A stretch of 64,000 nt of DNA. Source: Dyadobacter fermentans (GTDB taxonomy: Bacteria; Bacteroidota; Bacteroidia; Cytophagales; Spirosomataceae). The position numbers and the translations under genes are program-made. The notes below the pieces were generated by a model. That model had not been told where the DNA came from, did not search any database, and worked only from the letters and a program-made list of their open reading frames with translations. The DNA lies in the NCBI RefSeq assembly GCF_019924045.1, contig NZ_JAHXBN010000001.1, positions 124,001 to 188,000 of the forward strand, written 5' to 3'. Each line of letters starts with the position of its first letter. The first letter of the stretch is position 1. This document shows positions 6,212-55,713 of this stretch, piece by piece.

Positions 6212-6317
6212 GCAGTAGGCTATAAGCTGTAAGCTTTAAGCCAAGTTTTCAGAAATGTTCATTCCAAAAAAGCTTAAAGCCTAAGGCTTACAGCTTATAG
6301 CCTAAAGCATACAGCCA
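6208..6317. repeat. 7-bp periodic inverted array B
   Basis: Left arm in register: GTAAGCA, GTAGGCT, ATAAGCT, GTAAGCT, TTAAGCC. After a centre of about 30 bp the right arm reads AAGCTTA, AAGCCTA, AGGCTTA, CAGCTTA, TAGCCTA, AAGCATA. The arms are mutual inverted repeats of the same unit (GCTTANA). The array begins at the stop codon of the isomerase and ends next to the following ATG. Confidence 0.85.
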
Positions 6318-6320
6318 AAT

Positions 6321-9584: not shown

Positions 9585-9587
9585 GAG

Positions 9588-9697
9588 CTCTAAGCTGTAA
9601 GCAATAGGCCATAGGCTTATAGCTTACAGCTTAGAGCTTATAGCTTTTTTTCACCAGGCCCAAAGCTTATAGCCTAAGGCTTACAGCTTAAAGCCCT
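9588..9697. repeat. 7-bp periodic array C
   Basis: A short inverted left part (TAAGCTG, TAAGCAA, TAGGCCA) is followed by GCTTATA, GCTTACA, GCTTAGA, GCTTATA, then a T tract. A second block reads GCTTATA, GCCTAAG, GCTTACA, GCTTAAA. All blocks keep the 7-bp step. It fills nearly the whole gap between the cupin and isomerase genes. Confidence 0.85.
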
Positions 9698-9710
9698 TAT
9701 CTCTTAAACC

Positions 9711-10746: not shown

Positions 10747-10893
10747 GGCTGTAAGCTGTAAGCCATAAGCTGTAAGCTTTTTTGCCTTCGCTTCAATGAA
10801 GCTTAGAGCTTATAGCCTAATGCTTACAGCTTAAAGCATTTTAAATATTCCCAAAACCTAAGGCTTAAAGCTTATAGCTTACAGCCTAAAGCA
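10747..10893. repeat. 7-bp periodic inverted array D (largest)
   Basis: Left arm, 10747-10778: GCTGTAA, GCTGTAA, GCCATAA, GCTGTAA. Right arm, about 10799-10840: GCTTAGA, GCTTATA, GCCTAAT, GCTTACA, GCTTAAA. A second right block, 10857-10893: CCTAAGG, CTTAAAG, CTTATAG, CTTACAG, CCTAAAG. The left arm is the reverse complement of the right-arm unit, so a long imperfect stem is possible in DNA or RNA. Confidence 0.9.
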
Positions 10894-10902
10894 TTCAACA
10901 AA

Positions 10903-12063
10903 ATGTCTGAAAAAAAGCAAATCCGCGTCGCCCTGATCGGTTCCGGTTTGATGGGCCGCACGCATACAAATGGTTATAAAAGAATCGGGGATTTTTTTCC
11001 TGAACTCGAATACCGCCCGGTACTGGCGGCTGTTTGTTCCCGCAACGAGGAGAAAGTGAAGGCTTTTGCCGAGCAATGGGGCTATGAATCGTACGAAACC
11101 GATTGGCGCAAAATCATCGAGCGCGACGATATCGACGCGGTCGACATTTGTACGCCTAACGATACCCATGCCGAGATCGCATTGGCAGCGGCTGCGAAGG
11201 GCAAAATGATCCTTTGCGAAAAGCCTTTGGCACGTACATTGGCAGAAGCGAAAACTATGGTGGATGCCATTGAAGCTGCGGGTGTGAAAAACACGGTTTG
11301 GTATAATTACCGTCGTGTTCCTGCCGTGACTTTGGCTAAGCAAATTGTGGATTCAGGCAAGCTGGGCCGCATTTTCCATTACCGCGCCAACTTCCTGCAA
11401 GACTGGACGATCAGCCCGGATGTACCACAAGGCGGAACGGCGACATGGCGCCTCGATGTAGACGCAGCGGGTTCCGGCGTAACAGGCGACTTGCTTGCGC
11501 ACTGTATCGACACGGCAATGTGGATCAATGGCGGTATCAAGGACGTGTCGGCGGTGGCTGAGACATTCATCAAGGAACGCAAACACGCTGGTACCGGCGA
11601 AGTACAAAAAGTAGGTATCGACGACGCTTGTATCTTCCATTGCCATTTCGATAATGGCTCGCTGGGCTTGTTCGAATCTACGCGTTATGCACGCGGCCAC
11701 AAGGCGCTTTATACTTTTGAAATCAACGGCGAGCATGCTTCCATTCGCTGGGACCTGCACGATATGAACCGCCTCGAATACTTCGATCACGACGACCAGT
11801 CGATCGTGCGCGGATGGCGTTCGATCCTGGTGACGGACGGCGACCAGCCGTATATGAAGCGCTGGTGGATTCCCGGAACCAGCATTGGCTACGAGCATTC
11901 GTTCGTACACCAGGCGGCAGATTTCTTCGAAAGCCTGCAAACCGGTAAGCCTTGCTCACCGACTTTCCGCGACGCCTACGAAACACAGAAAGTGTGCGAA
12001 GCGGTGCTGGAATCGGCGGCTTCCAAAAGCTGGAAAGATACCGGCGTACATTGGGAGGGTTAA
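10903..12063 (+). CDS. Gfo/Idh/MocA family NAD(P)-dependent oxidoreductase (cytoplasmic)
   Basis: A 386-residue protein with an N-terminal Rossmann fold ([17 protein letters not shown]), the [14 protein letters not shown] strand, and the family CEKPLA motif with K107-P108 at the active site. The C-terminal alpha/beta domain has [17 protein letters not shown], where the conserved Asp and His are expected, and ends in a helix rich in [17 protein letters not shown]. Members oxidise sugars, inositols or amino sugars. No signal peptide is present, in contrast to the Tat-targeted relative at 17.3 kb. It follows array D by nine bases and is separated from the transporter by a strong hairpin. Confidence 0.9.
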
Positions 12064-13651: not shown

Positions 13652-13756
13652 TATAAGCGGTAGGCTGTAAGCTATAAGCTGTATACTTCTATGCTTTTGC
13701 TTTAAAATCATTTTGCTTACAGCTTAAAGCCTATCGCTTAAAGCCTAAAGCCAAAT
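13652..13756. repeat. 7-bp periodic inverted array E
   Basis: Left arm, 13652-13686: ATAAGCG, GTAGGCT, GTAAGCT, ATAAGCT, GTATACT. Right arm, about 13713-13752: GCTTACA, GCTTAAA, GCCTATC, GCTTAAA, GCCTAAA. It has the same opposed arms and 7-bp step as arrays B and D. It fills the gap between the ATPase and permease genes inside an obvious transport operon. Confidence 0.85.
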
Positions 13757-13763
13757 TTAAAAT

Positions 13764-14696
13764 ATGAACAGATTCTCCAAACTAGGCCAGTACGGCATCT
13801 TTCTCGCATTTGCATTGATATGTCTCGTGCTGGCATTCAGTACGCCGAAGTTCTTTACGATTTCCAACCTGCTGATTATTGGTAATCAGGTGTCGATCAA
13901 TGCCTTGTTGGCATTTGGCGTCACTTTTGTGATCATTACCGGTGGTATCGACCTTTCACTAGGCTCGATGGTGGCGGTAACGGGAGTGGCGGCTGCGAGT
14001 TTTGCGCACCCAGATACCTATCCGTTGATAGTGCCATTGTTGGTAGGTTTGGGAGTGGGTTCGGCTATGGGTGCATTCAATGGTTTGGTGATTACCCAAA
14101 GCAAAGTGCCGCCATTTATTGTCACATTGGGAACGATGACTATCGGTCGCGGATTGGCATTGATCCTCAGTAAAGGACGGCCAGTCTCAAATCTTTCGGA
14201 CGAGTTCAATTTCATCGGTGGAGGGAATATTGCCGGCGTTCCATTTCCTATTATCATTTTGCTGATAGCCTTCGCAGTCTGCTCCGTTGTTTTGAATAAA
14301 ACGATTCTCGGGCGCTACATGTACGCGGTGGGGGGCAACGAGCCTGCTGCGCGCGCGTCGGGTATACGTGTGAGTCGTGTGAAAATGTGGGTATATACCA
14401 TTTGCGGATTACTTTCTGCATTAGGAGGTATCCTGCTCACGTCGCGTATTACCACCGGCCAGCCCAACGCCGGCGCCGGATTTGAGCTGGATGCGATTGC
14501 CGCAGCGATTATCGGGGGGACGAGCACCTCCGGCGGCACGGGAACCATGACGGGCACATTGATCGGCGCATTGCTGATTGGCGTGATCAGCAACAGCCTC
14601 GATCTGCTGAATGTGACTTCTTACTATCAGCAGGTCGTGATGGGGGTGATTATCATCGGTGCCGTGGTATTGGATGGAGTTGGGAAAAAGGATTAG
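13764..14696 (+). CDS. Ribose-type (CUT2) sugar ABC transporter permease
   Basis: A 310-residue, very hydrophobic inner-membrane protein of the RbsC/XylH family. The hallmark VTFVIITGGIDLSLGSM segment follows the first helices, then PPFIVTLGTMTIGRGLA, LGRYMYAVGGNEPAARASGI (the EAA-like loop that docks on the ATPase), and AIIGGTSTSGGTGT before the last helices. About ten transmembrane segments are expected. It would form a homodimer with the fused ATPase. It is separated from the ATPase gene only by heptad array E and from the binding-protein gene by about 105 bp. Confidence 0.95.
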   Translation: MNRFSKLGQYGIFLAFALICLVLAFSTPKFFTISNLLIIGNQVSINALLAFGVTFVIITGGIDLSLGSMVAVTGVAAASFAHPDTYPLIVPLLVGLGVGSAMGAFNGLVITQSKVPPFIVTLGTMTIGRGLALILSKGRPVSNLSDEFNFIGGGNIAGVPFPIIILLIAFAVCSVVLNKTILGRYMYAVGGNEPAARASGIRVSRVKMWVYTICGLLSALGGILLTSRITTGQPNAGAGFELDAIAAAIIGGTSTSGGTGTMTGTLIGALLIGVISNSLDLLNVTSYYQQVVMGVIIIGAVVLDGVGKKD

Positions 14697-43367: not shown

Positions 43368-43389
43368 ATGATCCGCCGTGGAACGGGGA

Positions 43390-43418
43390 ATGATTGAATG
43401 ATTGAATGATTGAATGAG
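43390..43418. repeat. 8-bp tandem repeat TGATTGAA
   Basis: Three and a half direct copies of TGATTGAA lie just after thrB. A related TGAATGATTGAATGG occurs at 54744-54758 next to the decamer array. It is direct, not inverted. Confidence 0.8.
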
Positions 43419-43427
43419 CCGCGGATA

Positions 43428-43615
43428 ATGCCGTTAGGCATGTAACATAGGTAGCAAAAATGCGGCTTTGCAATGTCACACAATGCCCTTGGGCATGTAA
43501 CAACAAGGCATCGTCGTGACCCGTGCGGCATCTGTTGTTGCATCCCTGACGGGATTTCGATGACGGCGTACGGCTTTATGGTTACCAATATTACATCGCT
43601 ACGCGATTTTTTTGA
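43428..43615. repeat. Non-coding small-hairpin element after thrB
   Basis: Within the 368-bp gap after thrB are three short hairpins: ATGCC-GTTA-GGCAT (43428-43441), ATGCCC-TT-GGGCAT (43483-43496) and ATCCC-TGAC-GGGAT (43542-43555). The first two are followed by the same TGTAACA string. I recall similar TGCC..GGCATGTAACA units dispersed in Bacteroidota genomes, which would make this a REP-like element. No ORF here is convincing. The remainder to 43735 is AT-rich leader for the IscA-like gene. Confidence 0.6.
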
Positions 43616-53090: not shown

Positions 53091-53200
53091 GCCTTAAGGC
53101 CCGACCATAGAGCCTTAAGGCTCGACCGCCGACCATGGATTGGTTGTCCGCGGTCCATGGTCTATGGTTCATGGTCTATGGTCGGCGGTCTACGATCATC
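53091..53200. repeat. 7-bp periodic inverted array G, overlapping the modC 3' end
   Basis: The left arm carries GACCATG, CGACCAT, CGACCGC, CGACCAT units and two palindromes GGCCTTAAGGCC and AGCCTTAAGGCT. The right arm reads GGTCCAT, GGTCTAT, GGTTCAT, GGTCTAT, GGTCGGC, GGTCTAC at 7-bp steps. The arms are inverted relative to each other. The right arm also encodes the last residues of modC. Confidence 0.85.
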
Positions 53201-54085
53201 AGATTTAATCGTCCGAATCTCCACATCTCCCCCGCTGTAATGCAACGTAAACTTCGCGCCCGGCCGTAACTGTGCTTCCCAATGCGTCGGGACATTGAAT
53301 TGCCGGATTTTCCCGTCGATCCACGCTTGTACGGAAAGCATTTCCTTGTGGCGCTCGCGGGTTAGTACTTCGCCGTAAATGCGCAGCGCGTCGGTTTGGT
53401 CATTCAAATATACTTCGGCGGGTGATCCGATGCGGGTTAATCTCCCATTTCCCATGATTGCCACCTGATCGGCCAGGCGGAAAATTTCCCCGATGTCGTG
53501 CGTTACCAGTATGATCGTAAATGGTCGCTCGCGGTGGAGTTTGAGTAATAAATCCTGCAATTGCAGTTGCATATCCGGGTCGAGGGCGGCAAAAGGCTCG
53601 TCCATTAAGAGCAGCTCCGGCTCGCGCACGAGGGCACGGGCGAGCGCAACGCGCTGTTGTTGCCCGCCCGAGAGCTGGTGCGGTTTCCGGGTGGTGAGCT
53701 GCGTGAGACCTGCCGTTTCGAGCAAATGGCTGATCAGTTCCTTGTTATGGGTTTTAGGCAGGGCAAATTCAAGATTTTGCATGACGGTCATGTTCGGGAA
53801 CAATGCATAGTCTTGAAAAACAAACCCGATATGCCGCTGCTGTGCCGGAACGTGCAGGCGGCTTGCGGTATCCAGCCATGGATTCTTGCCAAAAGTGATC
53901 CGGCCGGATTCCGGTATGGCCAACCCTGCAATTTGCCTTAATAATGTGGTTTTTCCTGCGCCCGAAGGTCCGGTAAGTGCGAGAATGCTGTTGCCGGGCA
54001 ATGCAAAATCCACTTCCATCGGTAAGATTCCCTCCGCAGTGTGCAAAGTATGCCGGATATGGACTTCAAGCAGGTTGTCGGACAC
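53162..54085 (-). CDS. modC: Molybdate-type ABC transporter ATP-binding protein
   Basis: About 307 residues from the GTG at 54085, which overlaps modB by 20 bases; an in-frame ATG at 54142 would overlap much more and adds residues unlike the family. Walker A is GPSGAGKTTLLRQIAG, signature LSGGQQQRVALARALV, Walker B ELLLMDEPFAALDP, and H-loop VTHDIGEI. A C-terminal MOBE-like domain (SVQAWIDGKIRQFNVPTHWE) follows. The last 13 residues or so (DDRRPPTIDHEP) are coded by the heptad array, so the natural end has probably been replaced. It powers uptake with ModB and ModA. Confidence 0.9.
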   Translation of the reverse strand: MSDNLLEVHIRHTLHTAEGILPMEVDFALPGNSILALTGPSGAGKTTLLRQIAGLAIPESGRITFGKNPWLDTASRLHVPAQQRHIGFVFQDYALFPNMTVMQNLEFALPKTHNKELISHLLETAGLTQLTTRKPHQLSGGQQQRVALARALVREPELLLMDEPFAALDPDMQLQLQDLLLKLHRERPFTIILVTHDIGEIFRLADQVAIMGNGRLTRIGSPAEVYLNDQTDALRIYGEVLTRERHKEMLSVQAWIDGKIRQFNVPTHWEAQLRPGAKFTLHYSGGDVEIRTIKSDDRRPPTIDHEP

Positions 54086-54740
54086 GGAGCAGGCGGTTGT
54101 TAATGGAATAGACCAGCAGCAAAATAACGAAAGTGATCGCAAAAAGCACCATCGCGTAGGTATTCGCGGCCGGGTAATTCAGGGCTTCCACCTCGTTGTA
54201 AATGGCTACGGATGCCACTTTGGTTACGCCCGGGATGTTGCCGCCGATCATCAGCACCACGCCGAATTCGCCGACGGTATGCGCGAATGTGAGTACAAAT
54301 GCCGTGAGAATGGCCGGTTTGCAATTGGGTAAGAGCACTTTCGTGAACGTCTGCCATTCGCTTTTGCCCAGCGTGTAGGATGCCTCCCGTAGCGAAGGCG
54401 GTAACGATTGGAGCCCCGCACGAATAGGGTAGATCATGAATGGCAGGCTGTATAAAATGGAGGCGATCACGAGGCCCGGAAACGAGAAAACCAGCCTTAA
54501 TCCGAAAATATCCTCGATCCACGCCCCAAACCAATGCGACGGACTGAAAGCCAGCAGCAGGTAAAACCCGATCACCGAAGGCGGTAGGACGAGCGGCATG
54601 CCGATCAACGCTTCCACCACGCCCCGGCCTTTGAATTTTCCAAAAACCAGCCAGTAGGCGATCGGCATGGCGATTACCAGTAGCAGAACTGAAGTAATGC
54701 TGGCTAGTTTGAAGGTTAGCAGGAGTGGTTGGGGGTCCAA
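54066..54740 (-). CDS. modB: Molybdate ABC transporter permease
   Basis: A 224-residue inner-membrane permease from a TTG start. It has five to six hydrophobic helices, the PLVLPPSVIGFYLLLAF segment typical of ModB, and the cytoplasmic EAA loop LREASYTLGKSEWQTFTKVL that contacts the ATPase, then FAHTVGEFGVVLMIGGNIPG. It is downstream of modA with a 220-bp gap that is filled by the 10-bp inverted array, unusually large for this operon, and it overlaps modC. The array may affect modB expression relative to modA. Confidence 0.93.
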   Translation of the reverse strand: MDPQPLLLTFKLASITSVLLLVIAMPIAYWLVFGKFKGRGVVEALIGMPLVLPPSVIGFYLLLAFSPSHWFGAWIEDIFGLRLVFSFPGLVIASILYSLPFMIYPIRAGLQSLPPSLREASYTLGKSEWQTFTKVLLPNCKPAILTAFVLTFAHTVGEFGVVLMIGGNIPGVTKVASVAIYNEVEALNYPAANTYAMVLFAITFVILLLVYSINNRLLRVRQPA

Positions 54741-54757
54741 TTTTGAATGATTGAATG

Positions 54758-54960
54758 GTCAGGTTTTATCAAGTGTAGTCAGGTATTGTCAAGTGTTGTC
54801 AAGTATAGTCATGGGTTGTCATTCGTGGTCAGGTATTGTTGTATGTGTGTTTCATGACTAATTCAGAGTATCAATGGCAGCACTTGACTATACCTGACCA
54901 CGAATGACTACACTTGACAATACCTGACAACTCTTGACCAAAAATGACAATACCTGACAA
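54758..54960. repeat. 10-bp periodic inverted array between modA and modB
   Basis: From 54758, GTC recurs every 10 bp through nine units (e.g. GTCAGGTATT, GTCAAGTGTT, GTCAAGTATA), one of them ATC. From 54851, TGAC recurs every 10 bp: one unit at 54851-54860, then eight from 54881 to 54960 (e.g. TACCTGACAA, CACTTGACTA). The right units are the reverse complement of the left ones, and GTCATTCGTGGTCAGGTAT is shared between the arms. The centre is about 54841-54880. The array abuts the modA stop codon exactly. Confidence 0.95.
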
Positions 54961-55713
54961 TTATTTGTAACCGTACCGTTTAAAAATCGCTTTTGCTTTG
55001 GTTGAATACAGGAATTTGTAAAACTGCTCACTGGATGCTTTTTTGGGTGAATCCTCGCTGTGCTTCAATAAAATGGCTGCCTGTTGAATGGGTTTATAAA
55101 GGCTTGAATCCACTAATACATAATGTCCTTTATCCTTCATCTCAGGCGACAGCACAATGGATAATGCATTGAAACCCGCTTCCACGGAACCAGTTGTAAT
55201 GTATTGGGCGGTTTGGGCGATGCTTTCACCGAATACGAGCTTCTTTTCGGTTTGTTCGTAAAGTTTCAATGCATTCAACGCCTGCACGGCCGCTTCGCCG
55301 TAAGGTGCCGTTTGGGGATTGGGGATGGCGATTTTTTTGACACTACCGGTAGCTAGTATTTCTGGTTTGAGGTCGGTTTCGGAGATATCCTTCGACCAGA
55401 GTACCAATGCGCCGGTGGCGTAAACTTCCGGTTTTTGGTCGGAACCGCCGTTTTTGAAAATTTCCTCGGGGTATTTGGTGTCGGCGGAAACGAATACGTC
55501 GAATGGCGCGCCCTCGCGGATCTGCGTCGTGAGTTTGCCGGAGGAAGCAACTACGATCTCGATCTGCTTGCCCGACTCTTTCTCGAATTCCTGCTGGATT
55601 TCTTTCATCACATATTGCACGTTGGCGGCAGTTGCGACGACGATTTTCTCCGACGGCTTGGAGCAACCGGCCAGAAATGCAGCGAAAAGGACAAGGATAC
55701 GTAGTTTGTTCAT
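54961..55713 (-). CDS. modA: Molybdate ABC transporter substrate-binding lipoprotein
   Basis: A 250-residue binding protein with lipobox FLAGCSKP (Cys17). It has the ModA features VATAANVQYVMKEIQQEFEK, EIVVASSGKLTTQI, GAPFDVFVSADTKYPEEIF, KIAIPNPQTAPYGEAAVQAL and a late QAAILLKHSEDSPKKA. The SSGKLTTQI and NPQTAPYGEA stretches line the oxyanion site for molybdate or tungstate. It is first in a modABC operon. The stop codon sits right at the edge of the 10-bp array. Confidence 0.95.
   Translation of the reverse strand: MNKLRILVLFAAFLAGCSKPSEKIVVATAANVQYVMKEIQQEFEKESGKQIEIVVASSGKLTTQIREGAPFDVFVSADTKYPEEIFKNGGSDQKPEVYATGALVLWSKDISETDLKPEILATGSVKKIAIPNPQTAPYGEAAVQALNALKLYEQTEKKLVFGESIAQTAQYITTGSVEAGFNALSIVLSPEMKDKGHYVLVDSSLYKPIQQAAILLKHSEDSPKKASSEQFYKFLYSTKAKAIFKRYGYK

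Follow-up and report, generated by a model that had tools for sequence, protein, structure and literature searches.

Facing arrays of short, degenerate repeats between modA and modB of Dyadobacter fermentans and in intergenic regions of related bacteria

As described in PMC5927463, the malE gene of Escherichia coli is stabilized by a structure located between malE and malF, which protects the upstream mRNA of the malEFG operon, and in the ABC transporter operons found, the stabilized gene is invariably the one that encodes the binding subunit. Repetitive extragenic elements of the REP type, as characterized in PMC3733652, are palindromes of 20–40 bp that carry GTAG or CGTC tags. Arrays of TAACTGA-like heptamers have been reported from Beggiatoaceae, Cyanobacteria and five Bacteroidetes; according to PMC4679880, these are near-identical direct repeats (169 sets, with one indirect repeat) that mostly lie just before start codons.

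Here we analyze a stretch of 64,000 nucleotides of the Dyadobacter fermentans genome (contig NZ_JAHXBN010000001.1, positions 124,001 to 188,000; hereafter, the window), in which the gap between modA and modB of a molybdate transport operon is filled by two facing arms of 10-bp units. As in the malE–malF type of structure, a stem-loop, here a predicted one (fold z -8.9), separates the genes for the binding protein (modA) and the permease (modB) of an ABC operon. In the open-licence literature searched, we recognized no description of such arrays in Dyadobacter or its relatives.

Layout of the mod array and its genome-wide family

The first-pass annotation described the array as nine GTC-marked units facing nine TGAC-marked units; the strict 10-bp step and the opposed arms stand, but the count is eight units per arm (Table 1). 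The TGAC cores of the right arm lie at 54885, 54895 and onwards in exact 10-bp steps to 54955 (eight cores), whereas the row of the left arm stops where the following 10-bp step, at 54838, reads GTTG. The final TGAC of the right arm ends at 54958, two bases off the modA stop codon, with modA at 54961–55713 on the minus strand, so that the array indeed abuts this stop codon, as had been noted. An inverted-repeat search of the mod gap returned 74-nt arms that are 80% complementary, with 47 nt between them. The 8-bp GAATGANT family, of which a short stretch adjoins the modB start, fills or flanks the modA–modB gap in many congeners, too. Further along the operon, a facing 7-bp GACC/GGTC array occupies window positions 53123–53190, between the mod ATPase gene and the next gene, and the syntenic segment of the relative G018 contains a facing 7-bp GACC/GGTC array at the matching place.

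Table 1. The mod operon array with its neighbours (window coordinates) and the six orthologous gaps compared among five genomes (G000, own genome)
Feature	Position	Strand	Content or evidence
Left arm	54758..54837	+	eight 10-bp units in GTCA orientation (seven GTCA, one ATCA, the second unit, 54768)
Centre (loop) of hairpin	54838..54878	.	~41 nt without a clean unit row; one extra TGAC at 54855
Right arm	54879..54958	-	eight 10-bp units that read TGAC on the plus strand
ATTTTGAATGATTGAATG	54740..54757	.	short run of 8-bp GAATGANT-family sequence beyond the left arm, adjoining the modB start
modA, molybdate substrate-binding protein	54961..55713	-	TIGR01256, 198.3 bits, cut-off 62.5
modB, molybdate permease	54066..54740	-	TIGR02141, 231.8 bits, cut-off 182.6
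ABC transporter ATP-binding protein, probably modC	53162..54142	-	TIGR02142, 204.3 bits, below the cut-off of 285; position; the called ORF starts at an early TTG
Gap 1, mod			10-bp array in G000, G018, G003 and G011 (short in G011); plain 25-bp gap in G002
Gap 2	G000 204852		10-bp array in all four species covered
Gap 3	G000 235683		10-bp array in G000 and G018; facing 8-bp arrays in G003 and G011
Gap 4, between probable moaE and moaCB	G000 274417		10-bp array in G000 and G018; facing 8-bp arrays in G003 and G011
Gap 5	G018 194043		G018, G003 and G011 with a 10-bp array, G000 with a facing 7-bp array of GACC type, G002 with 39 bp and no array
Gap 6	G011 299274		G011 with a one-armed row of 10-bp units, G003 with a facing 7-bp array of AAGCTTA type; coverage lacking for G000 and G018

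The mod-sense strand of the array has a predicted folding energy of -89.2 kcal/mol compared to a shuffled mean of -45.8 (z -8.9, with 0 of 200 shuffles as good), and the strand opposite to the mod sense yields z -8.3. The long RNA stem that had been proposed inside the mod operon is thus thermodynamically plausible, as judged from the predicted fold of the mod-sense strand. Among 20 gap sequences containing 10-, 8- or 7-bp arrays, 18 fold better than all 60 of their dinucleotide shuffles, the exceptions being the short mod array of G011 (5 of 60 shuffles as good) and the one-armed row of the same genome (25 of 60). Intrinsic terminators, that is, a GC-rich stem followed by a T run, were not detected in window positions 54600–55100 (0, with 0.4 in shuffles), and there is no T run at the mod array; the Rfam 15 covariance models gave 0 matches at the gathering score across the whole window. 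Elsewhere in the window, a facing 7-bp TAAGC/GCTTA array (9585–9700) includes a near-perfect hairpin (9585–9646) that leads straight into seven T and is terminator-like. Additional 7-bp arrays of the AAGCTTA family are located at about 6260–6320, 10800–10905 and 13660–13770, and, by the strict scan discussed below, the window has four facing arrays that belong to it.

The 10-bp array recurs elsewhere in the genome. A three-core pattern (GTCA-N6-GTCA-N6-GTCA) has 836 matches (415 + 421) in the 8.0 Mb of G000, compared to 0 + 0 for the control, in which the pattern was reversed. A facing pattern, consisting of two GTCA cores, 20–50 nt and two TGAC cores, with overlapping matches counted, yielded 88 matches in the facing polarity, none in the reversed control and 5, at two places, in the opposite polarity. 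A looser array detector that was tried first (191 arms vs 93 in the reversed control) was dropped; in 1.08 Mb of own sequence, of which ~0.36 Mb was chosen because pattern matches lay there, the stricter detector found 80 arms, with a single arm in the reversed control. After joining one split locus, these arms correspond to 45 loci, of which 34 have both arms (32 facing and 2 in the reverse order) and 11 are one-armed, although the two-armed share is inflated because part of the sequence was selected by a two-armed pattern. Over 693 units, the GTCA core is 94–97% intact per position, with a detector that favours intact cores; position 9 is T in 89% of these units, A and G together make up 88% at position 8, and the other positions rarely have C (2–7%). 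Core intactness is 0.765 near the loop (n=132), 0.911 in the middle of the arm (n=146) and 0.882 in its outer part (n=161), where the lower value near the loop could stem from mis-chaining of the detector into the loop.

Comparison of the flanks and loops of the loci revealed no loop, flank or target site common to all of them; several other repeat families lie beside the arrays, without a boundary common to all. Some loop wordings, such as TTTCA-TGAC, seem to recur on inspection by eye. Two 10-bp loci, L128:18964-19051 and L132:5659-5732, have alike centres and purine-rich flanks and are likely copies of each other, a hint of dispersal. Window positions 43427–43609 contain a copy of a dispersed ~190-bp element that matches several places in the own genome, on both strands, and the same element also sits within one 10-bp array locus (L126). 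Next to this copy, at 43388–43417, there is a one-armed, perfect 8-bp row, GAATGATT (3.8 copies).

The 41 loci with clear neighbours comprise 24 in co-directional, 15 in convergent and 2 in divergent gaps, whereas the 427 background gene pairs include 270, 89 and 68, respectively, with orientations taken from a simple ORF caller, such that single ones may be wrong. The convergent excess (15/41 vs 89/427) is supported at p 0.03; the divergent depletion (2/41 vs 68/427) is not significant (p 0.066). Almost all co-directional arrays (22 of 24, p 3.6e-5) are closer to the upstream stop than to the downstream start, the median distances being 15 nt and 44.5 nt, respectively. This preference for gene ends is not absolute, given that one of the gaps with an array, at G000:C77:235683, is truly divergent.

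Growth of the arms and replacement of unit families

Mirrored unit order between the two arms of a locus was not found, with a mean z of -0.29 over 31 loci (3 below -2), some of which were imperfectly paired by the detector, with overlapping arms and, in one locus, the opposite polarity. Likewise, arms within a locus are no more alike (0.390) than arms of different loci (0.403), and the number of exact shared words (16) is close to the expectation (16.4). Because unit order is not mirrored and arms of the same locus match each other no better than they match others, there is no covariation between arms, and mirror symmetry or exchange of units between arms was not found in these order and word tests.

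In the clearest orthologous pair, G000 235683 and G018 255573, the arrays are near-identical and differ by exactly one 10-bp unit, besides a few substitutions that fall on variable positions. Across arms, neighbouring units are 34–58% alike at the variable positions (5–8 and 10), and long arms contain block duplications, identified by eye, with an excess at even separations. In G000, units separated by two, four or six steps resemble each other more than adjacent units do (42 arms up, 25 down, p 0.0009); this even-separation, or period-20, preference is not significant in three other genomes (p 0.24; of 13 arms, 8 up and 5 down). In one G000 arm of 36 units, L136:6121-6480, the even-apart units are more alike, as if blocks of 2, 4 and 6 units had been duplicated, and odd-sized blocks are present inside arms as well (by eye). 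Outside the 10-bp arms, GAATG rows of the 8-bp family occur in a fixed polarity, in 22 of 75 flanks vs 2 with CATTC, and the mod gap is arranged likewise, so that the arrays seem to be nested.

Orthologous gaps were compared over ~300 kb in G000, G018, G003, G002 and G011; where aligned, the identity to G000 is 88.1% for G018, 86.6% for G003 and 82.1% for G002. Six gaps contain a 10-bp array of at least 5 detected units in some species (Table 1). In 4 of these 6, a small set found post hoc, a 10-bp array in one species (one-armed in one of the four cases) has as its counterpart in another species a facing array whose 8- or 7-bp units are unrelated to it. Two smaller 10-bp rows of G018 (3–4 units) resemble coding or decayed sequence that is conserved in relatives. 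In a strict scan of 1.38 Mb of the five genomes, for four families picked after being seen, we identified 32 facing arrays, all of which (32/32) show one polarity per family, and none in the reversed controls. Among the 101 gaps of G011 that are longer than 60 bp, two contain facing 8-bp arrays, and both are gaps in which G000 and G018 have 10-bp arrays; the chance of this coincidence is about 1 in 500 (10/5050 pairs, five such gaps counted), in a small test made post hoc. Thus, the earlier suggestion of one opposed-arm design with different unit lengths holds, in that such arrays exist and even share orthologous gaps. The presence of unrelated units in orthologous gaps speaks against a DNA-binding protein with 10-bp spaced sites on one face of the helix and for a register-tolerant hairpin, and suggests that the hairpin shape counts more than the sequence. 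The interchange of unit families is the surprising feature of what is a real, large family of dispersed intergenic hairpin repeats.

The 28 named loci retrieved with ModA all belong to Dyadobacter. The three-core pattern was detected in 29 of the 37 Dyadobacter genomes (own included), of which two have a single match, and the remaining 8 have none. The matches per genome range from 0 to several hundred, and abundance tracks genome size (rho 0.48, p 0.0025, 37 genomes). Outside the genus, one of the 22 genomes of the order that were searched has a match, a single one. Facing arrays were found in 54 of 200 genomes drawn from the family, representing 7 of 36 genera, and in two other genera, a few members are rich in facing arrays, with up to 95 and 51 matches. 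Thus, the 10-bp family is patchy within both the genus and the family. The ratio of GTCAGG- to GTCATT-type pairs is 447:159 in G000, 388:116 in G018, 3:161 in G006 and 9:124 in G014, that is, the words at unit positions 5–6 are set per genome, not per locus. In the genus g30 (G145; L219, L210, L213, L216), arrays contain, alongside 10-bp units, 16-bp units that consist of GTCATT and a small GC-rich palindrome (by eye).

In the modA–modB gap, 10-bp arrays are present in 10 of the 39 species compared, which answers the objection, raised together with the original description, that the array might be an assembly artefact. The other species have one-armed or simple 8-bp rows (15), facing 8-bp arrays (2) or no array (12), where one 10-bp case (G066) and both facing 8-bp cases were assigned by eye; gaps without any array are 0 to ~90 nt long. 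On a modA+modB tree of these species, the 10-bp class requires 6 changes, of which 2 are forced by well-supported branches, and all four gap classes together require 11 changes, with many forks unsure. Given that 29 of 39 species lack it, and that 12 of 39 have neither a 10-bp array nor an 8-bp row, the 10-bp array of the mod gap is dispensable.

A putative gene-end hairpin and the competing explanations

Our preferred, although tentative, reading is that the mod array belongs to a group of REP-like RNA hairpins at gene ends, with a stem that would block decay, placed as in malE–malF of E. coli; this function is inferred. Assuming that the gap is transcribed, its transcript would fold into one long, imperfect stem formed by two rows of short, degenerate tandem repeats that face each other, in which a unit of either arm would pair fairly well with any unit of the other arm, in any register. 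Because all units have a common core, the stem would survive the gain or loss of units. The arms would lengthen and shorten by slippage in whole units, and the identity of the unit sequence that fills the gap would matter little. If formed in vivo, such a stem at the 3' end of a gene would work like a REP hairpin, blocking 3'-to-5' decay and rendering the expression of neighbouring genes uneven; in particular, the modA–modB stem would favour modA, which encodes the binding protein, over modB and the ATPase, in the same way as the malE–malF structure. Several observations weigh against this reading: the arms do not covary, the mod array is dispensable, 11 of 45 loci are one-armed, 2 of the 20 folds do not outdo their shuffles, and at least one array occupies a truly divergent gap. 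The conservation of the GTCA cores across genera hints at sequence recognition that would be superfluous to a pure hairpin.

A serious rival, and a realistic possibility, is that the arrays are neutral or selfish satellites of no use to the cell, whereby an inverted seed arises in, or is copied into, the least harmful gaps, the arms grow by slippage, and the hairpins draw new slippage so that families displace each other. Such an origin is compatible with the independence of the arms in both words and order, with the block duplications within long arms, and with the high turnover of the mod gap (11 changes among the four classes on the 39-species tree, many forks of which are unsure). The relationship between abundance and genome size (rho 0.48, p 0.0025, 37 genomes), the lack of three-core matches in 8 of 37 Dyadobacter genomes, and the fixed polarity of the GAATG flanks, as if array grew within array, point in the same direction. 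Neutral growth, however, does not explain why two facing arms are kept upon replacement in 4 of 6 gaps (with one 10-bp row one-armed), why the core is 94–97% intact beside variable neighbours (as seen by a detector that favours intact cores), or why the arrays are close to stop codons, unless these are merely the places where they are tolerated.

The three other explanations appear improbable, to varying degrees. That the arrays are bidirectional transcription terminators, as the array excess in convergent gaps and the one 7-bp hairpin of the window that runs into seven T (9585–9646) might indicate, is rather improbable, given that the mod array shows neither a terminator-like match (0, shuffles 0.4) nor a T run, that a strong terminator inside modA–modB or moaE–moaCB would cut off the operon, and that, at L134:5759, a hairpin with a T run is already present beside the array (by eye). 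We consider it improbable, too, and markedly so, that a DNA- or RNA-binding protein reads (RTN)GTCA, with sites spaced one per helical turn on DNA. Such a reader would account for the retention of GTCA, together with R at position 8 and T at position 9, in Dyadobacter and, by eye, in other genera, and for the genome-specific words at positions 5–6 (447:159 in G000, 3:161 in G006), as if these were read by each genome's own factor; but the arrays in orthologous gaps can have 7- or 8-bp units whose cores are unrelated, G145 has 16-bp GTCATT units (by eye), such a protein would need neither the polarity nor two facing arms, and no candidate protein was found. The form in which the first-pass annotation put this idea, with GTCA read on one face of the helix, is not supported: the 7- and 8-bp families and the 16-bp GTCATT units share the layout without the 10-bp phase. 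Finally, mobilization as REP-type elements by a REP-associated Y1 transposase is highly improbable: the arrays are intergenic, hairpin-forming and dispersed, with genome-specific wording, and 47 of 48 Dyadobacter genomes have Y1_Tnp genes, but there is no conserved tag, flank or loop, the numbers of Y1_Tnp genes and arrays do not correlate (rho 0.16, p 0.35, 37 genomes), and, whereas G020, which lacks Y1_Tnp, is array-free, G008, G013 and G017 have Y1_Tnp and yet no arrays.

Extending the gene-end hairpin reading beyond the mod operon, it is conceivable, although we are doubtful, that bacteria of this family keep sequence-interchangeable structures at gene ends, with facing arrays maintained by the cell or by a copying machinery while unrelated 7-, 8- and 10-bp families take each other's place and often grow one within the other. 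Selection would then act on the register-free stem, with slippage renewing it. If that is the case, structure would be conserved at gene boundaries while sequence is replaced wholesale, in a manner invisible to ordinary sequence or covariation searches; such blindness is apparent here because Rfam gave 0 matches in the window and the arms show no covariation. Short tandem repeats, usually taken for noise, would serve as renewable RNA structure, and the mod array and its relatives would provide a testable case. Dyadobacter, with dozens of species that differ in array number, would be a ready comparative system. If the arrays are neutral instead, they offer a clean model for the origin of facing satellites in bacteria and for the way in which one displaces another.

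Comparison with described repeat systems

Like REP/BIME elements, the Dyadobacter arrays are high-copy, dispersed intergenic inverted repeats that are able to form a hairpin and are mostly located near gene ends. Unlike these elements, however, their arms are rows of degenerate 10-bp (or 7- and 8-bp) units, and the families replace one another; inspection of the outer flanks of the loci by eye showed no common terminal tag of the GTAG/CGTC type. With intrinsic terminators, the arrays share a hairpin after a stop codon, but the mod array differs in having no T run and a stem of ~80 nt. The STRR heptamers of heterocystous cyanobacteria are short tandem units scattered in gaps, as in the Dyadobacter arrays; they are not known to have opposed arms or exchangeable families.

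The TAACTGA-type arrays introduced above resemble those of Dyadobacter in being intergenic arrays of short units with a patchy distribution that includes some Bacteroidetes. By comparison, the Dyadobacter units are degenerate (34–58% alike at variable positions), their arms face each other, and the arrays are mostly located just after stop codons, with 22 of the 24 co-directional ones nearer the upstream stop.
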